Source of the DNA: Pseudonocardia benzenivorans CB1190
Lineage (GTDB): Bacteria > Actinomycetota > Actinomycetes > Mycobacteriales > Pseudonocardiaceae
Direction of reading: 5' to 3'
Assembly: GCF_000196675.2 (NCBI RefSeq)
Contig: NC_015312.1
Coordinates: 1,550,001-1,614,000 of the forward strand
DNA: 64,000 bases
Shown here: positions 35,619 through 43,475 of the stretch, piece by piece
Position numbering within the stretch: the first letter of the stretch is position 1
Layout: each line of letters starts with the position of its first letter
The notes under the pieces: model-generated
What the model was told of the DNA's origin: nothing
Seen by the model: the letters and a program-made list of their open reading frames with translations, nothing else
Databases searched by the model: none
Position numbers and translations under genes: made by a program

Positions 35619-36604
35619 GAGAGTGTTGTAGAACCTCGGTGGTCAGTCTTTGAGGTCTTCTGCTAGTCGGCGGGCGGCTTCCTTCTCGATGTCGCTGCGG
35701 GGAGCGGGGAGTTCCTCACCGGCGAGGCGGGCGGCCATCAGCCGGATCATCGCGAACTTGATCATCGCCTCGGCGTGGGCAGTCTTGCGTTCGTAGTCCC
35801 GGGCCAACCGTCTACACCTCGTCAACCAGCCGAAGGTTCTCTCGACCACCCACCGGCGGGGCAGCACCTGGAACCCTTTCACGTCGGCGTTACGCGGCAC
35901 CGCGACCACCTCCAGCCCCTCACTGCGCCGGGCCCAACCGACCAGGCCGGCGTCCACCGAGTTGACATAGCCGCCGTCGACCCACACCAACCCGAGCAGC
36001 GGGAACCGGGCCCGGGCACCGGACAGCATCAACCGGGCCCCGGCCCGGTCCTGCACCGACGCCGAGTGCACCACCACGTGCAGCACCAGGCCCAGGGTGT
36101 CGACCAGCAGGTGGCGCTTGCGGCCCCGGACGCGTTTACCGGCGTCGTAGCCGATCTGTTCACCGCCCTCGCTGGACCTCGCCGACTGGGAGTCCAGCAC
36201 CGCCGCCGAGGGCTGCGGGTCACGCCCGTCGGCGATGCGGACCCGCTCACGCAGCACCTCGTGGACCCGGTCCCAGGTGCCGTCGCGGGTCCAGGCCCGA
36301 AACCACTGGTAGGCGATGCTCCACGGGGCCAGATCGTGCGGGACCAGCCGCCAAGCGCACCCGCTGACCAGCACATAAGAGATCGTGTCGATGATCAACC
36401 GGCGGGAGTGCACGTACGGGCGCCCGCCCAACACCGCCGCCGGGCGGGGCAGCAACGGCTCGATCAACACCCACTGGGCGTCGGTCACCGAGGAGTCATA
36501 CGCCGGTTTGCAGGTACAGACACACACCCGACCGGATGATCAACAGGTCCGGGCGACTACTACGGCCGCCACGCCGAGTGATCACCAGGTTTCACAACAC
36601 TCTC
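35619..36604 (-). mobile_element. IS5-family insertion sequence (986 bp)
   Basis: Terminal inverted repeats begin GAGAGTGTTGT at both ends (left 35619 onward, right 36604 reading back) and continue with AACCT and GTGRTCA partly conserved. The flanks are TAA/TAA (35616-35618 and 36605-36607); with TIRs one base shorter the duplication would read CTAAG. One transposase gene fills the element on the minus strand. It looks intact and recent, since repeats and frame are undamaged. Confidence 0.88.
35643..36527 (-). CDS. IS5-family transposase
   Basis: 294 residues. N-terminal DUF4096-type region (VTDAQWVLIEPLLPRPAAVLGGRPYVHSRRLIIDTISYVLVSGCAWRLVP), then the DDE catalytic residues: Asp in AVLDSQSARSSEGGE, Asp in LVWVDGGYVNS, Glu in RRWVVERTFGWLTRCRRLARDYER. 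A GTG at 36527 gives the full frame; the true start could be a later GTG at the VTDAQW segment. Single frame, no programmed frameshift needed. Confidence 0.92.
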   Translation of the reverse strand: MCVCTCKPAYDSSVTDAQWVLIEPLLPRPAAVLGGRPYVHSRRLIIDTISYVLVSGCAWRLVPHDLAPWSIAYQWFRAWTRDGTWDRVHEVLRERVRIADGRDPQPSAAVLDSQSARSSEGGEQIGYDAGKRVRGRKRHLLVDTLGLVLHVVVHSASVQDRAGARLMLSGARARFPLLGLVWVDGGYVNSVDAGLVGWARRSEGLEVVAVPRNADVKGFQVLPRRWVVERTFGWLTRCRRLARDYERKTAHAEAMIKFAMIRLMAARLAGEELPAPRSDIEKEAARRLAEDLKD

Positions 36605-39453: not shown

Positions 39454-40209
39454 GTGACGCGAGCAGACGGCAGGGCCGACGACGAACTGCGCCCCGTGCG
39501 CATCACCCGCGGCTTCCAGAAGCATCCGGCGGGCTCCGTGCTCGTCGAGTTCGGCGACACCAAGGTGCTGTGCGCGGCGAGCGTGACCGACGGCGTCCCG
39601 CGCTGGCGCAAGGGCAGCGGCCTGGGCTGGCTGACGGCCGAGTACGCGATGCTCCCGTCGGCCACCAACACCCGCAGCGACCGGGAGTCCGTCCGCGGCC
39701 GGATCGGCGGCCGCACGCACGAGATCAGCCGCCTCATCGGCCGGTCCCTGCGTGCCTGCATCGACCTCAAGGCGTTGGGTGAGAACACGATCGCGCTCGA
39801 CTGCGACGTCATCCAGGCCGACGGCGGCACCCGCACGGCGGCGATCACCGGGGCCTACGTGGCACTCGCCGACGCGGTCACCTGGCTCGCCGCCCACAAC
39901 CGGCTCGCCGACCCGAAGCCGATCTCCTGCCAGGTGGCCGCGGTGAGCGTCGGGGTCGTCGACGGACGCGTCCGGCTCGACCTGCCCTACGAGGAGGACT
40001 CGCGGGCGGAGGTCGACACCAACGTCGTCGCCACCGACACCGGCACGCTCATCGAGGTGCAGGGCACCGCGGAGGGCGCGACGTTCTCCCGCCGCACCCT
40101 CGACGCGATGCTCGACTCCGCGCTCGCCGGCATCGCCACCCTCGCGACGCTGCAGGCCGAAGCGCTGGCCGCCCCCTACCCGGGCACCCTGCCGGGGGTC
40201 ACGGCGTGA
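39454..40209 (+). CDS. rph: Ribonuclease PH
   Basis: 251 residues. [33 protein letters not shown], then [23 protein letters not shown] (phosphate-binding Arg residues), [23 protein letters not shown], and [17 protein letters not shown]. RNase PH trims tRNA 3' ends phosphorolytically. The GTG start is at 39454; the stop overlaps the rdgB GTG by 4 bases. Confidence 0.97.
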
Positions 40210-40820
40210 CCGCACTGCTCGTCGCCACCCGCAACACCGCCAAGCTCTCCGAGCTCCGCCGCCTGCTCGACGCCTCCGACCTCGGCGGCATCGCCCTCTG
40301 GGGGCTGCGCGACGTCGAGGAGTTCCCCGAGGCCCCCGAGACCGGTGCGACGTTCCAGGAGAACGCGCTGGCCAAGGCCCGCGACGCGGCCGCTGCCACC
40401 GGGATGCCTGCCGTCGCCGACGACTCGGGCCTGGCCGTCGACGCCCTCAACGGCATGCCGGGGGTGTTCTCGGCCCGCTGGTCGGGCCGCCACGGCGACG
40501 ACGAGGCCAACCTCGATCTCGTGCTCGGCCAGATCCACGACGTGCCCGACGAGCGCCGTGGCGCCGCACTCGTGTGTGCGGCGGCGCTCGTGGTCCCGGG
40601 GGGCGACGAGACCGTCGTGGTGGGGGAGTGGCGTGGGCGGCTCGTCCGGGAGCGGCGGGGCACCAACGGCTTCGGCTACGACCCGATCTTCGTCCCCGAC
40701 GGCGAGCAGCGGACCTCCGCCGAGCTCGCTCCCGAGGAGAAGGACGCCGCCTCGCACCGCGGCATCGCCATGCGGGCGCTGCTCCCGCACCTGCGCTCCC
40801 TGACGGCCGCCGCCCGCTGA
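40206..40820 (+). CDS. rdgB: RdgB/HAM1-type XTP/dITP pyrophosphatase
   Basis: 204 residues. [18 protein letters not shown] (phosphate-binding), [43 protein letters not shown], and [13 protein letters not shown] are the family motifs. It removes non-canonical purine nucleotides from the pool. Translationally coupled to rph, the standard arrangement. Confidence 0.96.
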
Positions 40821-41515: not shown

Positions 41516-42229
41516 GTGCGGTGGTGGCGCCCGGCGGGCACGGTTCTGGGCGTGGTCGTCGCCCTGGCCGTCGCGCTGCTGCTCCTGCGGCTCTACGGGG
41601 TGCCCGGGATGTCCGACGTCCGCGCCACCGTGGCGGCTGCGGGGGTGTGGGCACCGCTGGCCTTCCTCGCGCTGCAGGCCGGGCTGACCGTCGGGCCGGT
41701 ACCCCGGACGGTGTTCACGCTCGTCGCCGGGGCGCTGTTCGGGTGGGCCGCCGGGCTCGTCCTGACCCTCGTGGCGACGACCCTCGCCGCGGTCGTGGCC
41801 TTCGCCCTCGTGCGGGTCACCGGCGGGCGGCTGGTCGAGCGCTACGCGCGCGGGCGCGCCGTGGACTGGGTGCGGTTACGGCTGGACCATCACGGGCTGC
41901 TGGCGGTGACGTCGCTGCGGCTCGTGCCCGCGGTGCCGTTCGCCGCGCTCAACTATGTCGCCGGGCTGTCCGCCGTGCGGTTCTGGCCCTACCTGCTGGG
42001 GACAGCCGTCGGCATCGTGCCGGGGACGGTCGCGATCGTCGTGCTGGGTGACGCCGTCACCGGGACACCCCCGCCCGCCCTGGTCGTCGTGTCCGCGGTC
42101 TGCGGGCTGGTCGGGCTGGCCGGTGTGGTCGTCGCGGCCCGCCGACCGATCCCGGAGGAGGTCCCCGAGCCCGAGCCGTTCCAGCACCCTCTGCAGCACC
42201 CTCTGCCCTTTGGGGAAACGACCCGTTAG
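41516..42229 (+). CDS. TVP38/TMEM64 (DedA-like) membrane protein
   Basis: 237 residues, about six membrane segments. The SNARE-associated/VTT core is visible: VGPVPRTVFTLVAGALFGWAAGLVLTLVATTLAAVVAFALVRVTGGRLVERY, then LRLVPAVPFAALNYVAGLSAVRFWPYLLGTAVGIVPGTVAIVVLGDA. The family moves or scrambles lipids or lipid carriers. GTG at 41516. The C-terminus has a short repeat (QHPLQHPL) encoded by a 15-bp DNA duplication, and the stop lies 11 bases from a tRNA on the other strand. Confidence 0.85.
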   Translation: MRWWRPAGTVLGVVVALAVALLLLRLYGVPGMSDVRATVAAAGVWAPLAFLALQAGLTVGPVPRTVFTLVAGALFGWAAGLVLTLVATTLAAVVAFALVRVTGGRLVERYARGRAVDWVRLRLDHHGLLAVTSLRLVPAVPFAALNYVAGLSAVRFWPYLLGTAVGIVPGTVAIVVLGDAVTGTPPPALVVVSAVCGLVGLAGVVVAARRPIPEEVPEPEPFQHPLQHPLPFGETTR

Positions 42230-42954
42230 TGCTGGTCGGGTGGTGCCGGCGGCGGGATTCGAACCCGCACTGACGGTCTCCTAAGGACCGCGCCTCTGCC
42301 AGTTGGGCTACGCCGGCGGCTCGCGCCACACCAGGTCGGGGTCAGCGCGTGGCAGTTCGGACACAGGATACGGAGGTTTGCCAGGCGGTTGTCGGTGTGG
42401 TCACCGTTCACGTGGTCGAGCTGCAGCGGAAGCGGCGTGCCGCGCCACTCCGTAAGTCCGCACTCCTGACAGTGGGCGGGTCGGAGGCCCTCGGCGATGA
42501 GGCGCTTGCGTAAGGTCGACGTGGGGTACGTCGACCCGCGCACGAGGATCTCGGCGAGCTTCCGCGTCCTGCGCCGCCGTGCCTCCTCGGCCCAGCGCAT
42601 CCTGGTGAAGTGGCTGGTGTCGAGCCGGAGGCGGCGGATGTGTGCATTCATCATCCGGTGGACGCCTCCGTTGGGGGTGTACCCGAGCCTGCGGCTGACC
42701 TCGGAGACGGAGTCGCTCACGCGGACGACCTCTGCGAGCTTCTCGTCCGTCCAGGACCGCCGCGGCTCCCTGCTGGAACCCACACCCGACCCGGGGATGT
42801 GCCGCGCTTCGACGCCGAGCCGCGCGATGTGCCGGCGCAGGTGGTCGTACCTGCCGGGCCTGGTGCCGAGCCGCCGGCACACCTCCGCCAACGTTGCGCT
42901 CGCCGCGACCGCCTCGACCAGCTGTTCGTCGGTCCATCGTCTCGCTCTGGGCAT
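42226..42954 (-). CDS. HNH endonuclease whose frame runs through a tRNA gene
   Basis: 242 residues from the ATG at 42954. Two helix-turn-helix-like repeats form the N-terminal half (RWTDEQLVEAVAASATLAEVCRRLG and RSWTDEKLAEVVRVSDSVSEVSRRLG), suggesting DNA recognition. The C-terminal nuclease has HCQECGLTEW, LQLDHVNGDHTDNRLANLRILCPNCHAL, a zinc-stabilised HNH domain with the catalytic His after Asp. Relatives end near CPNCHALTPTW; here the frame continues for about 30 residues made by the tRNA and ends 15 bases beyond it. This type is often beside tRNA genes and may be a homing-like element. It could be cut short if the tRNA is processed from the same RNA. Confidence 0.85.
   Translation of the reverse strand: MPRARRWTDEQLVEAVAASATLAEVCRRLGTRPGRYDHLRRHIARLGVEARHIPGSGVGSSREPRRSWTDEKLAEVVRVSDSVSEVSRRLGYTPNGGVHRMMNAHIRRLRLDTSHFTRMRWAEEARRRRTRKLAEILVRGSTYPTSTLRKRLIAEGLRPAHCQECGLTEWRGTPLPLQLDHVNGDHTDNRLANLRILCPNCHALTPTWCGASRRRSPTGRGAVLRRPSVRVRIPPPAPPDQH
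42241..42317 (-). tRNA. tRNA with UAG anticodon (reads CUA), short variable arm, CCA encoded
   Basis: Acceptor GCCGGCG/CGCCGGC (7/7 pairs), discriminator A and encoded CCA (42241-42243). D arm GCCC...GGC with three pairs, anticodon stem CGGTC/GACCG, loop CTTAGGA giving anticodon TAG, variable loop TCAGT (5 bases), T arm GCGGG-TTCGAAT-CCCGC. The anticodon reads leucine codon CUA, but bacterial leucine tRNAs have a long variable arm; this one is class I. Its amino acid is therefore uncertain. It lies inside the HNH reading frame on the same strand. Confidence 0.88.
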
Positions 42955-43007: not shown

Positions 43008-43475
43008 TCACACCTTGAGGTCCTTGCGGAGCTTGGCGACGTGACCGGTGGCGCGGACGTTGTACATCGCCTTCTCGATCTTCCCCTCCTCGTCGACGAG
43101 GAAGGTGGAGCGGATGACACCGGTGACCTTCTTGCCGTACATGGTCTTCTCGCCGAAGGCGCCCCAGGCCTGCAGGACCTCCCGGTCGGGATCGGAGAGC
43201 AGCGGGAAGGTGAGGTCCTGGGCGTCGCGGAACTTCGCGAGCTTCGCGGGCTTGTCGGGCGAGATCCCGACGACGTCGAGCCCCGCGTCGCCGAGCTCGG
43301 CGAGGTTGTCCCGGAAGTCGCAGGCCTGCTTGGTGCAGCCGGGGGTGCTGGCGGCGGGGTAGAAGTAGACGATCACCTTGCGGCCGCGGTAGTCGGCCAG
43401 CGAGACGGGCTTGCCGTCGGCGTCGGGCAGGGTGAAGTCGGGCGCCGGGTCGCCCTCGGCGAGTCGCTCGGTCAT
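43008..43475 (-). CDS. bcp: Thioredoxin-dependent thiol peroxidase (Bcp/PrxQ)
   Basis: 155 residues. GDPAPDFTLPDADGKPVSLADYRGRKVIVYFYPAASTPGCTKQACDFRDNL contains the peroxidatic Cys (TPGCT) and the nearby resolving Cys five residues later, the atypical 2-Cys Bcp pattern. GVIRSTFLVDEEGKIEKAMYNVRATGHVAKL is the typical C-terminus. It reduces hydroperoxides with thioredoxin. Single gene, divergent from a DUF3618 gene. Confidence 0.95.
   Translation of the reverse strand: MTERLAEGDPAPDFTLPDADGKPVSLADYRGRKVIVYFYPAASTPGCTKQACDFRDNLAELGDAGLDVVGISPDKPAKLAKFRDAQDLTFPLLSDPDREVLQAWGAFGEKTMYGKKVTGVIRSTFLVDEEGKIEKAMYNVRATGHVAKLRKDLKV

Follow-up and report, generated by a model that had tools for sequence, protein, structure and literature searches.

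A tRNA gene that combines a leucine anticodon with the short variable loop of a class I tRNA lies at positions 42241..42317 (minus strand) of the window, the whole 64,000-nt (64-kb) stretch of Pseudonocardia DNA analyzed here, and raises the question of which amino acid such a tRNA carries, which codon it serves, and whether it works for the host or for a mobile element. ARAGORN identified no other tRNA in the window and called this one tRNA-Leu(UAG), and Rfam RF00005 matched 42244-42317 (E 1.7e-9) at 56.5 bits, against a cut-off of 29; alignment and pair counts agreed with its assignment as a class I tRNA-Leu(UAG). An earlier note on this DNA had described four well-folding arms and a UAG anticodon on a class I body with a five-base variable loop and an encoded CCA, and had proposed covariance scoring; the RF00005 score, which is well above the cut-off, together with ARAGORN and direct reading, bears this description out. 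Direct reading revealed a 7-pair acceptor stem, a 5-pair T stem and the anticodon loop CTTAGGA, in which the anticodon UAG (positions 34-36; 42281..42283, minus strand), also given by ARAGORN and by the alignment, reads CUA. A misread anticodon was considered and rejected, given the clear 5-bp stem with its 7-nt loop and the Rfam match. The variable loop TCAGT (positions 44-48; 42269..42273, minus strand), located by direct reading and alignment, replaces the long arm and has 5 nt where a class II arm has at least 10, and its U48 is able to make a Levitt pair with A15. The 3′ end of the tRNA carries the discriminator A73 (42244) and the encoded CCA (42241-42243), both on the minus strand, while the D arm, aligned at 42292..42308 (minus strand) as a 3-bp stem with an 11-nt loop CAACTGGCAGA, has the layout of a class II tRNA-Leu (A14, A15, G18G19 and A20a).

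A census of the 7.44-Mb host genome returned 46 tRNA matches, all of them (46/46) read by ARAGORN. Three of the leucine tRNAs are class I, with the anticodons UAG (in the window), UAA (C1:965270) and CAA (C1:4148119), and only two, GAG (C1:5457464) and CAG (C1:135459), are class II. Neither the census nor the class II patterns detected a class II tRNA-Leu with anticodon UAG, UAA or CAA in the host genome, and the normal class II tRNA-Leu(UAG) that had been proposed as a check was thus not found elsewhere; the class I tRNAs are therefore the only detected host readers of CUA, UUA and UUG. Codons were counted in ORFs of at least 150 aa from the window and from twenty 20-kb stretches, with third-position G+C above 0.85, a filter that excludes AT-rich (mobile) genes. 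Among the 10,354 leucine codons of these picked ORFs, CUA was found 63 times (0.61%), UUA 3 times (0.03%) and UUG 358 times. The description of CUA as extremely rare consequently holds as far as its rarity in GC-filtered ORFs is concerned, but the codon is present, and UUA, which is a regulatory codon in actinomycetes (bldA), is far rarer. The host tRNA-Leu(UAG) was also compared outside the anticodon, although scores of this kind cannot decide where the class I Leu tRNAs came from: its identity was 0.75 to Leu-UAA, 0.72 to Cys, 0.69 to Leu-CAA and 0.69 to Arg-CCG, and 0.64 (GAG) and 0.57 to the two class II Leu tRNAs of the host. An origin by arm loss from these class II tRNAs was considered and found unsupported, the three class I tRNAs being 0.69-0.82 identical to each other versus 0.51-0.64 to class II.

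Judged by its sequence, the window tRNA is not a lone oddity but a member of a widespread actinobacterial family of short-armed leucine tRNAs. The family signature comprises C12 C13 A14 A15 with G21 A22 G23, a 5-nt variable loop and A73; it was invariant in 40 aligned members, and the window tRNA fits it. Matches to the D-arm motif (≤2 mismatches) were found in 47 of 60 relatives, some of them by chance, because a reversed control gave matches too, and ARAGORN read a class I tRNA-Leu in 30/30 loci of one set fetched from relatives and in 37/40 of another. Across 118 genomes of the host's taxonomic class, a first pattern for the class I form matched 49 genomes and proved too strict; the looser pattern that superseded it matched 96, of which one (G089) was a non-tRNA, leaving 95. 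In a sample of the phylum the looser pattern matched 38 of 149 genomes (G089 included), with 29 among the 136 outside the class. The class I UAG form was present in named genomes at 120 loci at least and, among the matches listed, occurred in Amycolatopsis, Saccharopolyspora, Lentzea, Prauserella, Nocardioides, Nocardiopsis, Nakamurella and Ilumatobacter, and the class I UAA form was found in records of Nonomuraea gerenzanensis and Nocardia farcinica. What fails, at least in Actinomycetota, is the premise behind the puzzle, namely that every bacterial tRNA-Leu is class II. In P. autotrophica, the tRNA-Leu(UAG) (L100 460-535 and L131 1959-2034) has C33 instead of the near-universal U, in the loop CCTAGGA.

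The 40 class I sequences (39 distinct), picked among those read for equal D-loop length, with other D-loop lengths excluded, formed an ungapped alignment of 74 columns. Cloverleaf pairing held in 98.8% of 780 cells, and both-side changes were observed in 16 of the 20 pairs; none of 500 shuffles reached as high a value, and sliding the partners lowered pairing to 35-52%. This covariation indicates that the fold of the family is under selection. Two of the 40 aligned members lacked A20a; among the 120 listed UAG members A73 was present in all 120 and the seven acceptor pairs in 119, and CCA was encoded in 16. That the window gene is a silent or decaying copy, as might be imagined from the reading frame of an HNH gene that crosses it, is scarcely credible against its intact stems, its A73 and encoded CCA, the covariation of its family, and the lack of any other detected UAG reader in a genome where CUA is in use.

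The two forms of tRNA-Leu exclude each other by anticodon. For UAA, 60 of the 118 genomes had class I only, 18 class II only, none both and 40 neither; for CAA, the corresponding numbers were 63, 30, 1 and 24, and for UAG they were 13, 57, 0 and 48, after removal of two non-tRNA matches (G118:C36 and G115) from the class II pattern results. Fisher tests of the exclusion, which ignore relatedness and hence do not correct for kinship, gave p values of 6e-7 (UAA), 3e-12 (CAA) and 1e-4 (UAG). The genomes with neither form indicate that the patterns miss genes. The sole genome of the 118 with both class I and class II tRNA-Leu(CAA) was G146 (C1:2228439 and C1:2395638), and a class I CAG or GAG was found in three (G100, G140 and G157). 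In two other genomes of the order (L056 and L089), two or more short-armed Leu tRNAs, CAG and GAG included, stand together in runs of tRNA genes. Within the host's own genus, the pattern search detected no class II tRNA-Leu(UAG) in any of 36 genomes, once two of its 8 matches, those in G002 and G026, were set aside as chance matches to non-tRNAs, and the class I UAG form was found, among the matches read, in 4 of the 36 (G000, G024, G028 and G031); the remaining genomes gave UAA and CAA members of the family or matches that were left unread.

The identity of the amino acid was approached from the tRNA, from the codons and from the synthetase. According to the available part of PMC9976931, the leucine identity elements of E. 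coli are A73, A14, A15-U48, G18G19 and A20a, and the long arm is dispensable for leucine identity there. All of these elements are present in the window tRNA. CUA and the other codons were then compared with their alignment columns in genes of the 120 listed class I UAG loci, restricted to homologues 40-92% identical and to sites that had four or more of them, a comparison that shows the meaning of a codon, not which tRNA reads it; 70 of 239 CUA sites, 16 of 57 UUA sites and 106 of 1567 UUG sites were testable. In strongly conserved columns (≥80% one residue), CUA stood at leucine in 34 of 36 cases, UUA in 11/11 and UUG in 51 of 54, and the CUG control in 970 of at least 999. Over all testable sites, leucine was on top at 49 of 70 CUA (70%), 15 of 16 UUA and 76 of 106 UUG sites, and at 1241 of 1455 sites (85%) for CUG. 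Arginine was on top at 13 of the 70 CUA sites, presumably because frames or starts had been called incorrectly.

In the host, a single LeuRS scored above the family cut-off, and its sequence is related to bacterial LeuRS of solved structure; a second LeuRS was considered and rejected, all remaining matches lying far below the cut-off. The host LeuRS gene itself contains three UUG codons, in columns that are leucine in 21/21, 20/20 and 20/22 other sequences. More widely, with 7 of 30 LeuRS loci removed by the extraction filter, leucine was on top at 18 of 22 UUG codons in LeuRS genes of class I CAA genomes, another residue at 4, and at 19 of 21 in those of class II CAA genomes. The presence of the identity elements, together with the placement of CUA, UUA and UUG mostly at leucine columns, makes charging with another amino acid unlikely. 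A tRNA that carries some other residue and recodes or mistranslates CUA, as the earlier note had entertained, could draw on a body about as close to some other class I host tRNAs (the Cys and Arg-CCG values given above) as to its leucine kin, and on the arginine-topped CUA sites. This reading is highly improbable and is not favoured, because the leucine identity set of the window tRNA is complete and the strongly conserved CUA columns are leucine almost throughout; that class I and class II UAG tRNAs never co-occurred in any of the 118 genomes also counts against it.

The surroundings of the gene bear on whether it serves the host. An HNH endonuclease ORF (42226..42954, minus strand; phrog_10822, E 7.5e-57; start codon uncertain) is its neighbour and stands outside the function of the tRNA; its frame is shifted such that its 3′ end crosses the whole tRNA and its stop begins 13 bases past it. 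Nearby lie genes that we take, from their translations, to be rph and rdgB (39454..40820, plus strand) and a Bcp-type peroxiredoxin (43008..43475, minus strand, start presumed), and at 35643-36527 (minus strand) an ORF that is presumably IS5-type transposase-like. By tblastn of the window neighbours against the 120 listed loci, rph was found in 24, rdgB in 26, bcp in 27 and any of the three in 38, or in 25 of the 80 loci having at least 1.5 kb on each side; where found, rdgB was at most 2 kb away from the tRNA in 23 of 26 loci and bcp in 21 of 27. Several loci of Nocardioides and Nakamurella had all three genes and Ilumatobacter rph and rdgB only, while most Amycolatopsis and Lentzea loci, among the matches listed, had none. 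A fixed chromosomal place of the UAG tRNA was thus only partly borne out by these 38 loci, and the presence of the neighbours in part of the loci indicates a place common to distant genera; in others the place has moved, or the tRNA was regained.

HNH sequence adjoined the tRNA in 4 of the 120 listed loci (L124, a remnant, L128, L131 and L231). The HNH gene of L131 (2052-2690) and those of Gordonia phage Sixama (L316 1268-1510) and Mycobacterium phage CicholasNage (L317 1135-1503) abut a tRNA-Leu or a tRNA-Leu-like sequence, namely a tRNA-Leu(UAG) in Sixama and a stretch uncalled by ARAGORN in CicholasNage. In these three and in L128, the HNH frame ends at a TAG that U8-A9-G10 of the tRNA or tRNA-like stretch make up; the frame in L231 is a different one. 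In P. pini, no HNH gene is present and a short remnant RILCPNCHAITE stands just before the class I tRNA-Leu(UAG) (L124 about 2700-2753), which suggests that an earlier HNH copy was lost. The HNH gene of the window was probably inserted next to the tRNA at a later time.

Relatives of the tRNA also occur on mobile elements. A class I tRNA-Leu was confirmed by ARAGORN in Pseudomonas phage ZC03, Myxococcus phage Mx1, Mycobacterium phage Bonray, Gordonia phage Sixama and a Calothrix plasmid, and similar stretches were found in Corynebacterium, Streptomyces and Rhodococcus phages and on plasmids from several actinobacteria; a match in an Aeromonas phage was rejected as a different tRNA. On the Calothrix plasmid (L320), two or more short-armed Leu tRNAs stand in a tRNA run.

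A tRNA that serves the codon use of a mobile element, as had also been put forward from the sequence, and that belongs to a phage or to an HNH module would agree with these phage and plasmid genes, several of them within tRNA arrays, with the HNH gene that overlaps the tRNA here and abuts its counterparts in Sixama and CicholasNage, and with the 82 of 120 listed loci in which none of rph, rdgB and bcp was found near the tRNA and the place is thus not fixed. We nevertheless consider it very unlikely. An HNH gene adjoins the tRNA in just the few listed loci given above, one of them a remnant, and P. pini, which keeps the tRNA with that remnant only, points the same way. The recurring neighbours span genera as distant as Pseudonocardia and Nocardioides. 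Moreover, the window tRNA stands alone in its 64 kb, with no other tRNA that would make it an array member, no other UAG reader was detected in the host, and its chromosomal relatives extend across the phylum, even though phages and plasmids carry relatives too.

The window tRNA thus very probably functions as a leucine tRNA for CUA codons and is a member of the actinobacterial class I tRNA-Leu family. It would be charged by the single, ordinary LeuRS of the host, since the features that bacterial LeuRS recognizes are A73 and the tRNA corner (A14, A15-U48, G18G19 and A20a), the long arm not being among them. The long arm is absent from this family, in which the 5-nt loop (often NCAGT) provides U48, and the class I UAA and CAA tRNAs of the host would read UUA and UUG by the same reasoning. 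A broader history is conceivable but rather doubtful: a separate class I tRNA-Leu lineage that passed between phages and chromosomes, in some cases linked to HNH genes whose end lies within the tRNA at U8-A9-G10, may have repeatedly replaced class II tRNAs for rare leucine codons across Actinomycetota, while the main CAG and GAG tRNAs stayed class II.

A cell that holds short-armed and class II Leu tRNAs together, presumably with one LeuRS, offers a natural test of what LeuRS reads, and bears on tRNA identity and the isotype calls of tRNA finders as well as on the design of orthogonal tRNAs and the rare leucine codons of actinomycetes. Such genes are already on record, phage records labelling them plainly tRNA-Leu, and the pattern may be undiscussed. 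The available parts of PMC9976931 and PMC7609411 give the long variable arm as a trait of cytosolic tRNA-Leu, which both reviews place in class II, and that of PMC7609411 describes no bacterial class I tRNA-Leu. A search of titles and abstract openings in the open-access literature likewise found no report of one, which is weak evidence of absence.

Compared with known systems, the window tRNA shares with bacterial class II tRNA-Leu the leucine anticodon, A73, A14, A15-U48, G18G19, A20a and a 3-bp D stem with a similar loop, and differs from it in having no long arm and in having C12-G23 and C13 instead of G12-C23 and G13. Human mitochondrial tRNA-Leu(UUR) has no long arm either and, in the available part of PMC9976931, is specified mainly by A73 and A14; it is organellar, with a partly unfolded anticodon branch, whereas the window tRNA forms a full bacterial cloverleaf. 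The non-canonical tRNAs covered in the available part of PMC7609411 are, like the window tRNA, natural departures from the standard tRNA structure. The tRNA-Leu genes of phages ZC03, Mx1 and Bonray share the CCAA...GGCAGAG layout of the D arm and the short variable loop with the window tRNA; unlike it, they lie in phage genomes, those of ZC03 and Bonray inside runs of tRNA genes.
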